From assembly GCF_900044055.2 (NCBI RefSeq), contig NZ_FCOX02000015.1:62001-126000 (forward strand): a stretch of 64,000 nt of DNA. Direction: 5' to 3'. Numbering within the stretch: position 1 is the first letter of the stretch; each line of letters begins with the position of its first letter. The notes below the pieces were generated by a model, which did not search any database, was not told the DNA's origin, and saw only the letters and a list, made by a program, of their open reading frames with translations. The position numbers and the translations under genes were made by a program. The DNA is from Caballeronia calidae. Lineage in GTDB: Bacteria > Pseudomonadota > Gammaproteobacteria > Burkholderiales > Burkholderiaceae. Shown piece by piece: positions 52,517 through 62,713 of the stretch.

Positions 52517-53341
52517 ATGCGTATAGAACAACTGACTTACGCCCTTGGCGCCGAACTGACCGGCGTCAAGCTGGCAGACGCCCTTCACGACGAAGGCCTT
52601 TTCGCCGAGATCCGCGCGGCGCTGCTGAAGCATCGCGTTCTGTTTCTGCGCGACCAGGAATTCAGCCGCGCAGAGCACGTAGCGTTCGCCCGGCGCTTCG
52701 GCGATCTCGAGGGCCATCCGGTAGCAGGAAGCGACCCCGAGCATCCCGGTCTCGTGCGGATCTACCGCACGCCCGAGCAGCCGAATGACCGGTATGAAAA
52801 CGCCTGGCATTCGGATGCGACCTGGCGCGAGGCGCCGCCGTTCGGCGCAGTACTGCGCTGCGTCGAGTGCCCGCCCGTCGGTGGAGACACCATGTGGGCC
52901 AACATGGTGCTGGCCTACGAAAAACTGCCCGAACATGTCAAGGCGGAGATCGCCGAGTTGCGTGCGCGTCACAACATCGAGGCGGTGTTCGGCGCGATCA
53001 TGCCGATCGACAGGCGGCTGGCACTCAAGGCGCAATACCCGGACGCAGAACACCCGGTCGTTCGCGCGCACCCCGAAACCGGCGAAAAGGTTCTCTACGT
53101 CAACGTCTTCACGACCCACTTCACCAACTTCCACACCCCGGCGCGGGTGCGCTACGGCGCCGATGCGAACCCGGGGGCCGCGGACTTGCTGCGCTACCTG
53201 ATCAGTCAGGCGTCCATTCCGGAATACCAGGTGCGCTGGCGCTGGAAGCCCAACAGCGTCGCAATCTGGGACAACAGCGCGACGCAGCACTACGCCGTCA
53301 TGGATTATCCGCCCTGCCATCGCAGGATATCGCGGTCATGA
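52517..53341 (+). pseudogene. TauD/TfdA-family dioxygenase, C-terminus lost by fusion
   Basis: Fe(II)/2-oxoglutarate dioxygenase: HSDATW carries the His-x-Asp ligand pair, and the distal His lies in WDNSATQHYAVMDYPP. The normal end (an Arg-containing segment and a few more residues after PPCHRR) is replaced by ISRS and a stop because the sequence jumps into the middle of an acyl-CoA ligase gene near 53325. All three metal ligands remain, but the 2-oxoglutarate-anchoring Arg region is at the break, so activity is uncertain. It starts 10 bases after the oxidoreductase and belongs to the same operon. Confidence 0.82.
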
Positions 53342-53706
53342 CGCCCGACGGGTTTATCCAGATCGTCGACCGCATCAAGGATGTGATCAAAACGGGCGGC
53401 GAATGGGTGTCATCGATCGAAGTCGAGAGCCTGATCACGGGCGTGGCCGGCGTGCAGGAATGTGCGGTGGTCGGCGTGCGCGACGAAAAGTGGGGAGAAC
53501 GGCCCATGGCGTTCGTCGTTCGCGATGCGGAAATGGGCGTGTGCGTTGAGGCGATTCGTGAACGGCTGATGCAGCATGTTGATGCCAAGCGGCTCAGCAA
53601 ATACGCGGTGCCTGATGCGGAGCGCATTGCCTTCGTCGCGGAAATCCCGAAAACCAGCGTGGGCAAGATCAACAAGAAGTTGCTTCGTGAGCGAGGCTTG
53701 GCATGA
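53323..53706 (+). pseudogene. C-terminal fragment of an acyl-CoA ligase
   Basis: Only the C-terminal domain of an AMP-forming acyl-CoA ligase remains: DIAVMTPDGFIQIVDRIKDVIK (hinge), GGEWVSSIEVE, and the catalytic-Lys end KTSVGKINKKLLRERGLA. The adenylating N-terminal part (about 400 residues) is missing and the frame is fused to the dioxygenase gene by a deletion. Cannot be a functional ligase. Confidence 0.85.
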
Positions 53707-56494: not shown

Positions 56495-57261
56495 AACAGA
56501 CCCACAGATCGGCCGTCCGCTGGCCTTGTAGGCGTCGTTCGCCAGCATGGGGAAATCGCCGTTGATACTACGCGGCAAAGGTTTGAGAGGTCATCCTTTT
56601 CGCTTGCCTTTCGGACAAGGAATCGCTCGTCTGGCGAGGTTCACGGAGGTCCGCTCTTAACCCGGGCCTATGACTGCTTGGGGTCGTTTTCACCAACCGT
56701 TCAACGTAGGTGGCGCCTGTTCGATGAACACGCGGGATGACGGCGTGGCCCGGGCTCCGCTTGGGTTGTCGCGGCAGCGAATTGCTTTTTCACGCTGTGC
56801 GCCGAATCATGAGACGTCGGCGCGATCAGCCACGCGAGGTGGACGTTTATCTGCCGATGTGGGCAACTAATCGTCAGCGCCGCACACCTCATGAGCAAAC
56901 TTCGCCATCGATGAGCCGCAGGCGCAGAACGAAGAGACTGGCCAACGACGAGTCGGTCGTATATCGGCCGCGGACAGTTTCCGATCCACGAGCGCCACAT
57001 GTCCCCCGACATTGGCGAACGCGCGGGCGATGCCGGCACCAATGCCACTTCCTGCACCCGTGACCACGCAGACCTTTCCGGCCAGATTCAGCGAGTAGGG
57101 GCTAGACGCCGCAGCGCGATTTCAAGTTCCTGTCTCAAGTCGTTGTACTTCCTTAAGTTTTCCTGTGAATTTGCTTCCTGAAATCCGTACCGTCATTGAA
57201 CGCCCCAAGCGCCTGTGGAACAATGCACAGAGATCACATAGAGCAGGACATAACGTGCATC
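56495..57261. other. Gap with gene debris, left of the AraC gene
   Basis: No intact gene. It includes the fragment of an SDR dehydrogenase listed separately; the remaining parts have poor codon quality and short conflicting frames. Confidence 0.45.
56958..57091 (-). pseudogene. Fragment of an SDR-family dehydrogenase
   Basis: On the minus strand LNLAGKVCVVTGAGSGIG... continuing ARAFANVGGHVALVDRKLS is the classical N-terminus of a short-chain dehydrogenase with the TGxxxGIG motif. Before it the sequence does not look like the start of an SDR, and after the VDRK strand the frame becomes unrelated. A 45-residue remnant left by a deletion. Confidence 0.8.
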
Positions 57262-58230
57262 ATGGCCAATGACCTGCAGCGCCGCCGGACCGTTCTGCAT
57301 TTCGCGCTATATGGCGCGGAAGCTGACCAATCCTGGCTCGACATGGTCCATTACGAACGCATTCCCCTGCGTGCCGGCCGTTTCGACTTCGACATCAAGC
57401 CGCACGTCCATGACGCGCTGATCCAGGTGCTCTACGTCACGGCGGGAGGTGGCGAGACTTTCATCGACGGCAAGACCTGGAAAGTCGAAGCGCCATGCCT
57501 GATCGTCGTGCCGGCGCGCTCGGTTCACGGCTTTCACTTCCGCAGCGACATCGACGGTCACGTCATCACCGCCGCGCAGTCCGCGTTGGAATCGCTGGCA
57601 ATGGCGGCCGCGCCCGAGCTGCTGGAATTCATCCGCACGCCGACGGTGCTGTCGATCGATCCCGACGTTGAGCGCGGCACCCCCCTTGACACCCTTTTTG
57701 AGTCGATCGGGCGCGAGGCGGAGAGCCACGAGCGCTGGCAATTCACCGCGGGGGCCGCACTGACGATTGCCCTGTTCGTCAAGATCGGGCGCCTCAGCGA
57801 GAGTACCCGGCTTTCAGCCAGTTCCGAGCAGCGGACCATGGCCGTGCGGATCGAGCGGTTCCGCGCCTTGCTCGACCGCCATTGCCGCGAGCGGCGGCCG
57901 GTCGCCAGCTATGCCGACGAAATGGGCGTGAGCACCGGCCAGCTCTCGCGTATCTGCCGCGCCGCCTTCGGGGTCTCGGCAATCGAGGCAATCGATGCAC
58001 GCTCGATCCATGAGGCCAAGCGGCTGCTCGGCTATTCGACGCTCAGCGTCAAACAGATCGCCAGTGAACTGGGCTTTCAGGACGAGGCCTATTTCGGTCG
58101 CTTCTTCCGCAAGCAGACGGGGCTTCCGCCAACCGAATACCGCGCTGCGGCCCACGATCGCTCCTTGCCGTCTGAAAAGGGAGAGCGGGCCGACCCCGCT
58201 TCACCCCCGTCGTCCGGGTCAGGCCGATAA
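57262..58230 (+). CDS. AraC-family regulator with cupin-like sensor (PobR/HpaA type)
   Basis: A 322-residue regulator. N-terminal cupin-type domain (FDIKPHVHDALIQVLYV...IVVPARSVHGFHF) and C-terminal AraC HTH (SYADEMGVSTGQLSRICR; VKQIASELGFQDEAYFGRFF). PobR/HpaA-type members respond to hydroxy-aromatic acids. ATG at 57262 is chosen; ATG at 57223 or TTG at 57196 are also open. Convergent with, and overlapping by 12 bases, the reductase-P450 fusion gene, so its control of that gene would have to act from a distance. A link to an aromatic substrate is inferred. Confidence 0.87.
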   Translation: MANDLQRRRTVLHFALYGAEADQSWLDMVHYERIPLRAGRFDFDIKPHVHDALIQVLYVTAGGGETFIDGKTWKVEAPCLIVVPARSVHGFHFRSDIDGHVITAAQSALESLAMAAAPELLEFIRTPTVLSIDPDVERGTPLDTLFESIGREAESHERWQFTAGAALTIALFVKIGRLSESTRLSASSEQRTMAVRIERFRALLDRHCRERRPVASYADEMGVSTGQLSRICRAAFGVSAIEAIDARSIHEAKRLLGYSTLSVKQIASELGFQDEAYFGRFFRKQTGLPPTEYRAAAHDRSLPSEKGERADPASPPSSGSGR

Positions 58231-61008
58231 CCCACGGAACTTCACGAACAGGTGTTCCGGGCCGGAGTTGGTCAGGTTGTTGCCCCGGACATACTGGATC
58301 GGCCTTGCCTGATCGAGTGCGATATCGCCAATCTTGCGGGCCAGAGCCTTCGTGGCGATGAGCGTCTCCAGCTTGGCGAGCGGCGCGCCGAGGCATTTGT
58401 GCATGCCGTTGCCGAAACCCAGATGGCCGCTGGAATCGCGGTCGATGTCGAAGGTCTCGCCCGCGGCAAACTTGCGGCTGTCGCGGTTCGCAGCCGACAG
58501 CAGCAATCGCACCACCGCGCCCTTGGGCAGATCGATGCCCGCGACCGTGGTCGCCTCGGTGGTGATGCGGCTCACGCGCTGGACGGTCCCGCGGTAGCGC
58601 GCCACTTCCTCGACGAAACGGTCGGCGTCGGCGGGGTTTTCGCGGATCCGTCCAAGCAGATCCGGCTGTTCGGCAAACATGCGAAAAGCGTTGGCGACAA
58701 GGATCGTCGTCGTATCGTGCCCGGCGATGAAGACGAAGGCGCACAACTCCTTCGCCTCCTTTTCCGAAAGCAACCCGTCCTTCCACATGCGCGCGATATG
58801 CCCGCCGATCGACTGGCTGTCGGTGCGAGCGAGCCGCTCCATCGCGTCCTTCAGGTATGCGAAGAAAGCCTGCGCGCTTTGTTCGTCGGTGCCGGTCCCC
58901 GGCGCGTTGCGGGCGAGGCGGCCGAAGTAGCTGAAGGTCTCGTCCGACCAGAACTTCATCTTCTCCTCATCCTCGTTCGGCACGTCGATCATCGTGGAGA
59001 TGGTCGAGATGCTGAGCGGGATGGCGAAATCATTGACGACATCACCGCCGCCATTGGCGATCATCGCGTCGAGCAGGTCCTCCGCCCTCTGCCCGATCTG
59101 CTCGATGAAGGGATCGAGCGCCAGCGGCAGGAAGGACGGCTGGACGACCTTGCGCAACCGCGAATGATCGGGCGCATCGAACAGCGTCAGGAAGGTCAGC
59201 GGCGGCGGGCTGACGACCTCGGAGGAAAACAGCTTCGGGTTGCGGATCGCCTGGTAGACGTCGTCATAGCGCGAGAGGAACCACACGTCCGAAGTCGCCG
59301 ACTGGCAACGCAGCACCGGCGCGTGCTCCCGCATCCAGCGGTAGTGCTCGTAAGGGTCGCCTTGCGAGCCGTCATCGACCACCTTGAACGGCTCCAGCCC
59401 CTCGGGCCAGTCCAGTTCGTGCGAATAGGGCGGAAGGGTTTTCGCCGTGAACGGGCAGATCTGCGGCGCGCTTTGCGGAACAGCCGCCGGGGGAGCAGGG
59501 GGCGCTGCGAGCATGGGCGCCGTTTTGCCCGGCGTCATACGTTCCAGAGCCCGGCTCATCGTGGCCTTGGAATGGAGCGCATGCAGCGCGATCACGTCTC
59601 GCGCCGCGTTCAGGTCGCCCAGTTCGAAGGCGGCGACAATGTCCCGGTGTTGCTGGACGATATCGCCGACGATCTCGATCTGGTCGGTCAGCGCGCGAAC
59701 GATGTAGTCCTGCACGGCCAGTTGCCGGTAGAGCGCGATCAGTTGCGCGTTCCCGGAAGCTTCGATCGTGAACAGGTGAAAGGCATGGTTTGCCTCGATG
59801 TAGCGCGCAACGTCGGTAAAGCGCTGTCCGGACACGAACGGCGCCGTCGCCTCGGCGAGCTGGCGGAAGGTCATCAGTTGCTCGCTCGACAGCCGGCCCA
59901 TGGTCAGCTGAGCCGCTCCCAGTTCGAGCGCCATGCGCAGGTCGAAGGCTTGATCGACATCAACGGGAGCGATGCGCTCCTCGCCGGTCTGAACCACCAG
60001 ACCGGTGCCGGCGAACTTCTCGTAATAGAAGTTGCGCGGCGTCAGCCCTTCGGACGAAAGAAAATTGCGGACCGCATCCACCATCGGCGGCGGGCCGCAG
60101 AGGTAGACATCAGCATCCCCATCGTTGAGCTGCGACGCGCTGATGTGATGGGTGACATAACCCTTGTTGGGATGGGAACTGTCGGGGCTTGCGACGGTGC
60201 AGGCATAGGTGAAGTTGGGCAGACGCCGTGCATAAGATTCGAGGCGGTCGATGCCAACCAGATCCTCGTCGGTGTTGACACCCAGAATCATGTGGATCGG
60301 GTACGGACTTCCGCCGTCTGCGACGATCTTGTCGAGCATCGAGAGAAATGGCGCGAGGCCCGTGCCACCCGCCAGAAACAGCACTGGCCGCTCGATCGCG
60401 CGCAGGTAGAAGCCTCCCAGCGGGCCGCGAAACTCGATTGGGTCTCCCACTTTGGCGGTGTCGCAGAGCCATCTCGACATCACCCCTTGGGGTACGTTGC
60501 GCACGAGGAAGGACAGGCGCGGCTCGGACGGCCCCGAGCTGAACGAGTAGGAGCGTGTCTGATCGGTGCCCGGGACCCGGATGTTGACATACTGCCCAGG
60601 AAGGAAGCTGAGATCTGCGCGGTTCTCGAGCTCGACAGAGAAAGCGATCGTGGTATCTGACGCTCGTTGGCAGGCGACGATTCGTCCGCTGTGGGAGGAA
60701 GGTCCGGTACCCGAGACATCGGAGTTCGTGGCGATCTGAATCACACAGTCGGAACGTGGGCTCATCTGGCAGGTAAGAACCTTGCGGGCGCTCGCTTCCT
60801 CGGGGCTAAGCGCATCTTCTACGCAGTCGCCCAGAACATACTCGCCGGACTCGCAGACCGCCTTGCAGGTGCCACACACACCATCACGGCAATCGAGTGG
60901 AATATTGAGCTTGGCGCGAATGGCGGCATCGGTGATTCGCTCGCTCTCCTTGCACTCGATGAAGCGGGTCACTCCGTCCTCAAAACGAAGGGTTATCTGA
61001 TGGGCCAT
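58219..61008 (-). CDS. Self-sufficient cytochrome P450 fusion: [2Fe-2S]/FAD/NAD reductase - FCD domain - P450
   Basis: A 929-residue single frame with three parts. (1) 1-335: BenC/GcoB-type reductase, with plant-type [2Fe-2S] Cys40, 45, 48, 80, FAD motif RSYSFSS (152-158), NAD-binding GGTGLAP (214-220) and CGPPPM (304-309). (2) about 350-490: an FCD helical domain of GntR-type regulators, with N407-x3-H411, H454 and H476 in the metal-ligand spacing, but no DNA-binding domain. (3) Pro/Ala-rich linker 495-515, then P450 from 535: I-helix AGHDTT (762-767), EVAR (801-804), heme loop FGNGMHKCLG with Cys872. All cofactor residues are intact. ATG 61008 has GGAG nine bases upstream. Substrate unknown; an aromatic acid or ether is plausible. 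Confidence 0.92.
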   Translation of the reverse strand: MAHQITLRFEDGVTRFIECKESERITDAAIRAKLNIPLDCRDGVCGTCKAVCESGEYVLGDCVEDALSPEEASARKVLTCQMSPRSDCVIQIATNSDVSGTGPSSHSGRIVACQRASDTTIAFSVELENRADLSFLPGQYVNIRVPGTDQTRSYSFSSGPSEPRLSFLVRNVPQGVMSRWLCDTAKVGDPIEFRGPLGGFYLRAIERPVLFLAGGTGLAPFLSMLDKIVADGGSPYPIHMILGVNTDEDLVGIDRLESYARRLPNFTYACTVASPDSSHPNKGYVTHHISASQLNDGDADVYLCGPPPMVDAVRNFLSSEGLTPRNFYYEKFAGTGLVVQTGEERIAPVDVDQAFDLRMALELGAAQLTMGRLSSEQLMTFRQLAEATAPFVSGQRFTDVARYIEANHAFHLFTIEASGNAQLIALYRQLAVQDYIVRALTDQIEIVGDIVQQHRDIVAAFELGDLNAARDVIALHALHSKATMSRALERMTPGKTAPMLAAPPAPPAAVPQSAPQICPFTAKTLPPYSHELDWPEGLEPFKVVDDGSQGDPYEHYRWMREHAPVLRCQSATSDVWFLSRYDDVYQAIRNPKLFSSEVVSPPPLTFLTLFDAPDHSRLRKVVQPSFLPLALDPFIEQIGQRAEDLLDAMIANGGGDVVNDFAIPLSISTISTMIDVPNEDEEKMKFWSDETFSYFGRLARNAPGTGTDEQSAQAFFAYLKDAMERLARTDSQSIGGHIARMWKDGLLSEKEAKELCAFVFIAGHDTTTILVANAFRMFAEQPDLLGRIRENPADADRFVEEVARYRGTVQRVSRITTEATTVAGIDLPKGAVVRLLLSAANRDSRKFAAGETFDIDRDSSGHLGFGNGMHKCLGAPLAKLETLIATKALARKIGDIALDQARPIQYVRGNNLTNSGPEHLFVKFRGLSA

Positions 61009-61289
61009 GACGGTGTCTCCTCTAGAGGCGCCCGAACAACCGCTCGGATGGCGGTATCGTCGGTCGGGTTGGCGCGCGAGGTAACCTTGTTTCTCGCAAG
61101 CGCCCGGCGGGTTCAGTGACGCCAATTTAGAGCCTCAGCCGCATTCCTCTCAATGGACAGAGACGTCGTTAGACCGGACAAAACGTGCACCGACGTCTCG
61201 TTGAGACTTCATGTACCAAGTTTGGGATTTCGCAATGTTCAATCTCAGCGTCGACAGCAAGCTTGCAAGCTTCGCGCTGGTACCCCGAC
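61009..61289. promoter_or_regulatory. Upstream region of the P450 fusion with paired GACGTC sites
   Basis: GAGACGTCG (61160-61168) and CGACGTCTC (61191-61199) form a perfect 9-base inverted repeat with a 22-base spacer; each arm holds the palindrome GACGTC, 30 bases apart centre to centre. This may be an operator for the P450 fusion or the permease. Confidence 0.45.
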
Positions 61290-62167
61290 GTGGGAGAGTG
61301 GATCCGAATCAATCCATCAGCAACTTGTGGTCGCACGGCGGCTTCCTGCCGAACGGCATCTCGGGGCTGGGCATGTCTTTCGCGTTCATCATGTTCGCGT
61401 TCGGTGGCGTGGAGATGCTGGGTTTCGCCGCAGCGGAAACCGACGAGCCGCGCAGGGTGATTCCGAAAGCGATCAATCAGCTGGTGTATCGCGTGCTGGT
61501 CTTCTATATCGGCTCGATGGTGGTCCTGCTGTCGCTCACGCCCTGGAACGCGCTCGTCGCACAACTCAAGGCCGGCGGCGGTGCCTACAGCAGCAGCCCG
61601 TTCGTGCGGGTCTTCTCGGGAATCGGAGCGCACTTCGCCGCGCACATCCTGAACTTCGTGATTCTGACGGCCACGCTGTCCGTCTATAACAGCATGGTCT
61701 ACAGCAGCAGCCGCCTGCTGTATGGCATGGCCCTCGAAGGCAACGCGCCGAAGTCCCTCATGCAGGTCAACAGGCGCGGTGTGCCGGTGCGCGCCATCGT
61801 CTATCCCGGCATTGTGACTGTGTTCTGCATCGTGCTGAACTACGTGGCGCCTGCAGGCGTGATCGAATTGCTGATGTCCCTGATCGTCGCGGCGCTCGTC
61901 ATCACCTGGGTCGTCGTCATCGTGGCACACATGGGCTTTCGCATGAGCAGCAAGGAGAAGGGCATCGCCGCGCGGTTTCCCGCCCCCCTCGCGCCGTTCA
62001 CGAACTACCTGTGTCTGCTGGCGATGGCCGTGGTTGTGGTCGTCATGCTGCTGACGCCGGCCATTCGCGTGTCTGCCATCGCGATCCCGATCTGGATGGC
62101 CATCGTCTACGTGTCGTATCGCATCGTTGCGCCGAAGACGCTTCAAGTGCCTGTCGACGCGTCCTGA
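61290..62167 (+). pseudogene. Aromatic/neutral amino-acid permease without its N-terminal third
   Basis: From about 61300 the frame (NQSISNLWSHGGFLPNG, then FGGVEMLGFAAAETDEPRRVIPKAIN) is an APC-family permease of the AroP/PheP/GabP type, but the first 150-170 residues with the first four or five helices and the substrate-site glycine motif are absent. The frame before 61290 (starting MYQVWDF at 61211) is unrelated. It leads directly into the HPPD-fumarylacetoacetase chimera, so it was probably the uptake gene of a tyrosine pathway. Confidence 0.82.
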
Positions 62168-62191: not shown

Positions 62192-62713
62192 GTGACTGCG
62201 CTTTTCGATAATCCAATGGGCCTGATGGGCTTCGAGTTCGTCGAATTCGCCTCGCCCATTTCGAACGTGCTCGAGCCGATGATGGAGAAACTCGGCTTCA
62301 CGCTCGTCGCCAAACATCGCTCGAAGGACGTGGTGCTGTATCGTCAGGGCGACATCAATTTCATCGTCAATCGTGAACCGAACAGCCCGGCGGCGTATTT
62401 CGCCGCCGAGCATGGCCCGTCGGCGTGCGGTCTGGCATTTCGTGTGAAGGACGGTTGTAATCTCAATCCTGGCGATTTGCTGGGCACGGGAACGCTTTCG
62501 GGACCGAAGCCGGAGCAAGCGGCATCATTGATGGAGCTGACATCGAACGGCAAACAGCCCATCACGCTTTCCAACGGCGAAGAGCGCGGCTTTTTAAATG
62601 ACGGCGACAGCATTATCCTGCGAGGATATTGCCAGCGCGCGGGACAACGCCGCGTTGGATTCGGGGAGTGCCGGGGCACGGTCCTGCCAGCTCGCGGCTC
62701 TCGCGCGGCCTGA
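62192..62713 (+). pseudogene. Chimera of 4-hydroxyphenylpyruvate dioxygenase N-terminus and fumarylacetoacetase C-terminus
   Basis: The first 88 residues ([19 protein letters not shown] to GLAFRVKD) are the N-terminus of 4-hydroxyphenylpyruvate dioxygenase. From about 62456 on the sequence becomes the C-terminus of fumarylacetoacetase ([42 protein letters not shown]). A deletion joined the first and last enzymes of tyrosine/homogentisate degradation in frame. Neither active site is complete: the iron ligands of HPPD are in the missing C-terminal half, and most of the FAH catalytic core is missing. Confidence 0.88.

Follow-up and report, generated by a model that had tools for sequence, protein, structure and literature searches.

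In the two-protein GcoA/GcoB system, which carries out O-demethylation of aromatic ethers, the reductase has the order [2Fe-2S]-FAD-NAD (flavin adenine dinucleotide, FAD; nicotinamide adenine dinucleotide, NAD). Among self-sufficient cytochromes P450, CYP102 (FAD and flavin mononucleotide, FMN) and CYP116B (FMN then [2Fe-2S]) have the P450 first, according to the available part of PMC9687028. The same part, citing Yamamoto, Hasegawa, Iwaki 2022 (doi 10.1093/bbb/zbab199), reports an enzyme of Paraburkholderia terrae KU-64 with the layout N-[2Fe-2S]-FAD-FCD-like-P450-C in one chain, which performs the initial hydroxylation in cyclohexanecarboxylate degradation. The available sections of PMC9795900 give the route from cyclohexanecarboxylate through the 4-hydroxy and 4-oxo acids to 4-hydroxybenzoate with a P450 as first enzyme, and describe the chc cluster of Sinomonas cyclohexanicum (Yamamoto et al. 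2021) with its P450 monooxygenase system. Here we analysed a stretch of 64,000 nucleotides from contig NZ_FCOX02000015.1 of Caballeronia calidae (the window, meaning this whole stretch), in which one gene joins a BenC-type reductase, an FCD domain and a cytochrome P450 (the fusion). Probably, this gene encodes a self-sufficient P450 hydroxylating cyclohexanecarboxylate at ring carbon 4. A preliminary description of this DNA had held the domain order to be unlike that of known self-sufficient P450s; as far as the accessible text of PMC9687028 goes, the same order was described for the KU-64 enzyme, and the architecture has been known in print since 2022. The earlier interpretation is partly supported: its outline holds, but the design is not new and the substrate class was probably misjudged.

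The intact frame of 929 residues read in the preliminary description at 58219..61008 was recovered at exactly these coordinates, on the minus strand, which had not been given; Cys40/45/48/80, RSYS, GGTGLAP, AGHDTT, ExxR and Cys872 likewise all lie at the residues first assigned to them. The gene starts with ATG at 61008, ends with the stop codon 58221-58219 and comprises the following features.

58219..61008, minus strand: fusion gene for BenC-type reductase, FCD and cytochrome P450, 929 residues (open frame, Pfam, NCBIfam)
61017..61021, minus strand: ribosome-binding site AGGAG, 8 nucleotides upstream of the fusion ATG (printed sequence)
60724..61008, minus strand: [2Fe-2S] ferredoxin domain, residues 1-95, with Cys40/45/48/80 (Pfam Fer2 at 10-84; cysteines in 44/44 copies)
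60010..60711, minus strand: FAD and NAD binding domains, residues 100-333, with RSYS at 152 and GGTGLAP at 214 (Pfam FAD_binding_6, NAD_binding_1)
59581..59949, minus strand: FCD domain, residues 354-476 (Pfam FCD, E 1.4e-15, 58 bits against a gathering cut-off of 24)
within 59581..59949, minus strand: presumed FCD metal-site positions N407, H411, H454 and H476 (profile matches to GntR-type regulators; conservation)
59449..59550, minus strand: variable Pro/Ala-rich linker, residues 487-520 (highest ratio of nonsynonymous to synonymous substitution rates, dN/dS, of five segments)
58234..59436, minus strand: cytochrome P450 domain, residues 525-925, with AGHDTT at 762, E801-x-x-R804 and heme Cys872 (Pfam p450)

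Along the protein, the Pfam order is Fer2, FAD_binding_6, NAD_binding_1, FCD and p450. Residues 3-333 scored 498 bits against NCBIfam BenC (passing the cut-off of 430) and had as their best PDB match 1krh, benzoate dioxygenase reductase (E 5.4e-110), which confirms the earlier view that an N-terminal BenC-type reductase precedes the P450 in one chain. Many soluble bacterial P450 structures match the P450 part, 283 distinct sequences of the PDB reaching E <=1e-20. A stand-alone P450 of Rhodococcus USK10 is 48% identical to this domain; no link of it to cyclohexanecarboxylate emerged, its record carrying no annotation and the frames around it being unscanned for families. Because the BenC-type reductase precedes the P450 within a single chain, the fusion is by its predicted anatomy a self-sufficient monooxygenase, for which NADH rather than NADPH is a plausible electron donor. 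The domain layout given in the preliminary description held for reductase and P450; the FCD had been left out of its reasoning and stood, bracketed, in the proposed check only.

Homologues were sought in 84,980 species genomes. Of the 355 stretches confirmed, the best 80 were kept and gave 79 loci; 53 of the 79 loci, plus locus L090, were translated, and matches extended beyond the reductase at 45 of them (L009-L053). Single-frame fusions were found at 41 of these 45, which together with the plasmid records L088 and L089 and the window gives 44 intact single-frame copies; the fusion of L048 ends at a contig edge, and in L051, L052 and L053 the P450 heme motif is absent from the frame starting at ATG. 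Six motifs ([2Fe-2S], FAD, NAD, I-helix, ExxR and heme) are each kept in 44/44 intact copies. Comparing the window with 12 of the 43 other fusions (11 pairs for the linker), we obtained median dN/dS values of 0.117 for Fer2, 0.112 for FAD/NAD, 0.109 for FCD, 0.24 for the linker and 0.082 for the P450 domain, the last being the lowest of the segments. The constraint on the FCD equals that on the reductase domains, and the linker, whose length varies from copy to copy, is under less. In a sample of 398 genomes of the family, 21 matched the fusion, 17 of them in one piece spanning essentially the whole protein; the remainder were a match in two pieces of one frame (G783), two split frames (G701 and G776) and a match covering residues 1-403 only (G034). 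Since 43 other single-frame copies hold the same motifs and each domain has a low dN/dS, the fusion is no assembly join but a genuine one-frame gene. The idea that benC came to lie beside a P450 through a frameshift, a faulty join in the assembly or a chimeric contig has next to no chance of being right: nothing specific to this gene speaks for it, although at three of the 45 loci the frame that begins at the ATG is without the P450 motif, and it is refuted by the 44 single-frame copies as well as by the 17 one-piece matches in the family. Between residues 340 and 530, where by the preliminary description a frameshift or join would have counted against the fusion, neither was found.

Among the best 80 of the 355 stretches, the hosts of the fusion are mostly Burkholderiaceae, with Kluyvera, Pseudocitrobacter, Enterobacter and Amaricoccus in addition, and among named relatives the protein comes closest to the one of Caballeronia hypogeia (99%). 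Within the genus, 7 of 58 genomes matched, six at full length. In a phylum sample of 398 genomes the own genome alone matched at E 1e-150, a sample too sparse for use, and E. coli genomes yielded nothing close to the copy of Kluyvera cryocrescens (L044). Thus the fusion belongs to a recently described architecture that recurs patchily in Burkholderiaceae, Enterobacteriaceae and Amaricoccus. In one of the family genomes (G701, contig 6; L113) the frame is broken close to the linker, so that one frame covers reductase and FCD and another, with a possible start of its own, the P450; this may reflect gene fission or a sequencing error. Furthermore, the public record L088 (12001-14790) names its product only as benzoate 1,2-dioxygenase electron transfer component BenC and leaves the P450 half unnamed. 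Such an annotation hides a P450 useful for biocatalysis, and of use also in the breakdown of naphthenic-acid-type compounds.

To describe the neighbour genes in relatives, we tabulated the pieces that tblastn gave with an identity of 40% or more across 48 sources (the window, L009-L053, L088 and L089), the flanks of several of which end at contig edges. An AraC homologue stands beside the fusion at 44 of the 45 loci L009-L053. Homologues of a short-chain dehydrogenase/reductase (SDR), an FAD desaturase and NIPSNAP lie near the fusion in 31/48 sources, 25 of which, all Burkholderiaceae, have the AraC gene followed by SDR, desaturase and NIPSNAP in that order, with mutual identities of these sets mostly at 89-98% (76-83% for L050; L052 has its SDR split in two). 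The other six are Enterobacteriaceae loci, in which the desaturase comes first together with an old-yellow-enzyme homologue, then NIPSNAP, with the SDR on the other strand and neighbour identities of about 50-75%. Several neighbour homologues of L051 are fragmented. Within the flanks, a PcaK-like transporter homologue was present in 12/48 sources and a PobA homologue in 9/48, four of these nine at 49-50% identity. Against the NCBIfam models, the desaturase scored 542 bits for ChcC2 (cut-off 900) and 304 for ChcC1 (cut-off 1000), the SDR 176 for ChcB2 (cut-off 350) and the transporter 510 for PcaK (cut-off 770); the monooxygenase of L034 reached 679 bits for PobA and passed the cut-off of 539.

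In the mechanism that we propose, NAD(P)H would reduce the FAD of the fusion, which would deliver single electrons to the [2Fe-2S] cluster, and the cluster would in turn reduce the heme of the C-terminal P450 domain; this domain would activate O2 and hydroxylate cyclohexanecarboxylate to the 4-hydroxy acid. The SDR would then convert the 4-hydroxy to the 4-oxo acid, ChcC-type flavin desaturases would aromatise the latter to 4-hydroxybenzoate, and PobA would form protocatechuate. This series is proposed because of the neighbour genes and the Sinomonas pathway. The preliminary description had expected an aromatic substrate. Because of the neighbours in relatives and the published KU-64 enzyme, in so far as the available text describes it, the substrate is probably an alicyclic acid, cyclohexanecarboxylate, which would be aromatised later. 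For this copy, we infer activity, substrate, electron path and the use of the gene set on contig C11 described below, the reaction being taken from print for an enzyme of the same architecture.

Around the fusion itself, the window retains two parts of the neighbourhood.

57262..58230, plus strand: AraC-family regulator gene, convergent with the fusion (Pfam, NCBIfam, neighbour table)
56963..57145, minus strand: remnant of the adjacent SDR gene, codons 3-59 of 281, 74% identity, with an in-frame stop

The SDR remnant continues into unrelated sequence, and neither desaturase nor NIPSNAP was found in the window by tblastn or in the neighbour table. Five other Caballeronia loci (L009, L016, L020, L022 and L037) hold no intact SDR, desaturase or NIPSNAP within their flanks; L009 shares the remnant of the window, in L020 and L022 the SDR pieces differ from it in length, and L016 and L037 have none. 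Because the remnants differ among these loci, the pattern points to more than one loss of the local gene set. On contig C11 of the same genome, homologues of the SDR (63%), desaturase (67%) and NIPSNAP (55%) are grouped, together with transporter (67%) and AraC (41%) homologues; a PobA homologue is located on contig C8. The C11 type of desaturase is present in 21/58 genus genomes, namely in 7/7 with the fusion (one of them truncated) versus 14/51 others (one-sided Fisher p 3.9e-4, uncorrected for kinship). The C11 set would probably cover the dehydrogenase and desaturase steps here, and we infer that the fusion now feeds it.

Several observations weigh against cyclohexanecarboxylate as the substrate, or against this use of C11. 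None of the ChcC2, ChcC1 and ChcB2 cut-offs was reached, and generic families outscored the Chc models (PRK06134 with 708 of 747 for the desaturase); the best match of the SDR is the generic subfamily PRK07231 (230 bits, passing the cut-off of 215). An intact SDR-desaturase-NIPSNAP set near the fusion is missing at 17/48 loci, the window among them, therefore the substrate could differ there. Moreover, the genome holds four further desaturase homologues (38-50% identity) and gives 110 SDR matches, which makes the C11 set the best match and not the sole candidate, and its PobA homologue on C8 shares no more than 49% identity with the L034 protein.

As the local aromatisation genes have been lost, the same P450 chemistry could serve another ring acid here, either an aromatic one or a cyclohexanecarboxylate that is unsaturated or carries substituents. 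The gene losses in the window and at the five Caballeronia loci are in line with this, as is the AraC regulator, whose best model is HpaA of 4-hydroxyphenylacetate catabolism (169 bits, below the cut-off of 275). We nevertheless consider such a switch unlikely, since the P450 domain shares 91% identity with its counterpart in L034, a locus holding the full set, and shows the lowest dN/dS of all segments, and since a homologous set exists on C11. Even less probable is that the fusion has been unused since the loss of the local operon and is a decaying orphan, intact in appearance only. Decay would agree with the remnant of the SDR and the truncation of nearby genes in the window, and also with the genus genome G034 and its match to residues 1-403 only, but frame and motifs are intact both in the window and in the 99% relative L009, which carries the same SDR remnant; low dN/dS speaks against decay as well, though most of the divergence may predate the loss. 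Hydroxylation of cyclohexanecarboxylate thus remains our preferred reading for this copy.

The genome encodes another BenC on contig C48 (55% identity) with an SDR directly after it, therefore the fusion need not act as a benzoate reductase. No benA or benB was found among the window neighbours scanned by Pfam, and clusters with neighbours of benA/benB type were seen at L054-L057 and L090 only (among shared neighbours, the unshared ones being unannotated). Other parts of the window are also truncated. Adjoining the start of the fusion, an amino acid permease frame (61211-62167, plus strand) lacks its N-terminal part (AroP model 177-445 of 456). The frame at 62216-62713 (plus strand) is chimeric, with an N-terminal part of hydroxyphenylpyruvate dioxygenase and a C-terminal stretch of fumarylacetoacetate hydrolase, the latter weak (22.3 bits of 23.9); it may be the scar of a deletion within a tyrosine/homogentisate cluster. 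At 53338-53706 (plus strand), directly after a TauD-type dioxygenase gene, lies a detached C-terminal domain of an AMP-binding enzyme, which looks like another deletion scar.

The FCD in mid-protein belongs to a family of ligand domains known from GntR regulators. By profile it matched eight PDB sequences at E <=0.01, GntR-type regulators by name, the best being 6az6 (E 9.7e-5). Metal ligands of the FCD family are one Asp and three His. We take N407, H411, H454 and H476 to be the metal-site places of this family, with N407 at the Asp place. His411 and His454 are kept in 43/44 fusions and His476 in 16/16 rows of the full-length alignment; the Asp place is Asn407 in the same 43/44 fusions and Asn in five actinobacterial BenC-FCD rows. 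The FCD alignments comprised 20 and 19 rows. Judged by these residues, the FCD retains three of the four presumed metal ligands. The midpoint-rooted reductase tree (15 of the 44 fusions plus L053, 30 BenC and 5 BenC-FCD) placed the 16 fusion rows in one branch (100/100), the five BenC-FCD rows in another (98/90 as drawn) and 29 of the 30 lone BenC rows in a third (100/99), with L066 alone. The fork joining fusions with lone BenC is weak (91/36), and L050, L057, L066 and L090 have long branches. BenC may therefore have carried the FCD from early on, with later loss in the lone BenC, or the domain may have been gained twice; the tree does not decide between the two.

Two homologues bear on this domain. 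In Paraburkholderia atlantica (L050, 8001-10571), a divergent fusion homologue of 61% identity in the genome scan and 67% in the full-length alignment has no Pfam FCD; what stands in its place is a shorter stretch that lacks the motifs of His411 and His454. Its neighbours are SDR, desaturase, NIPSNAP, AraC and PobA homologues. On a Tsukamurella tyrosinosolvens plasmid (L090, 10001-12583), benC codes for an 860-residue BenC-FCD-SDR protein beside benA and benB. One tentative and rather doubtful idea is that the FCD is a transferable coupling module on BenC-type reductases, which would bind a carboxylate (substrate or product) or pair two chains and so gate electron flow; the redox enzyme served, docked or attached behind it, would be a separate dioxygenase in the actinobacteria, the dehydrogenase fused to it in Tsukamurella and the fused P450 here. 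The Tsukamurella BenC with its FCD and fused SDR favours a reusable module, whereas the eroded FCD of L050 inside an otherwise complete operon argues against an essential sensor or coupling role and offers a natural test. If true, a sensor domain of transcription factors would have been reused as an allosteric switch within an electron-transfer chain.

A literature search for a fusion of FCD domain, P450 and reductase came back blank; since the architecture has in fact been published, an empty result of this kind carries little weight. FdeC of the naringenin fde cluster, considered as a possible P450 fusion, was rejected, as the available part of PMC11069340 likens it to a putative glyoxalase. 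In the accessible text of PMC11858498, a Rhodococcus benC product is termed FCD domain-containing protein. BenC (1krh) aligns end to end with residues 3-333 of the fusion, and lone BenC (four frames read) has 335-336 residues with neither FCD nor P450. Actinobacterial BenC with an FCD tail (L054-L057, 511-531 residues) and L090 have the reductase and then the FCD, the latter 36-43% identical to that of the window protein, and no P450; they adjoin genes clustering with the annotated benA and benB of L090. Like CYP102 and CYP116B, the fusion combines redox partner and P450 in one chain. It differs from CYP102 in its C-terminal P450 and in having no flavodoxin domain among the Pfam hits, and from CYP116B in that the reductase comes first, the [2Fe-2S] domain is N-terminal and the FCD lies in between. 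With GcoA/GcoB it shares the reductase domain order, but in a single frame. The chc P450 of Sinomonas cyclohexanicum reportedly uses separate redox proteins. As portrayed in the available sections of PMC9795900, the chc pathway resembles the one proposed here: a P450 acts first, and aromatisation to 4-hydroxybenzoate then involves a dehydrogenase and two desaturases. The KU-64 enzyme, likewise from Burkholderiaceae, has, by its partly available description, a domain order equal to that of the fusion, and the window copy differs from it in that the downstream pathway genes are missing locally.

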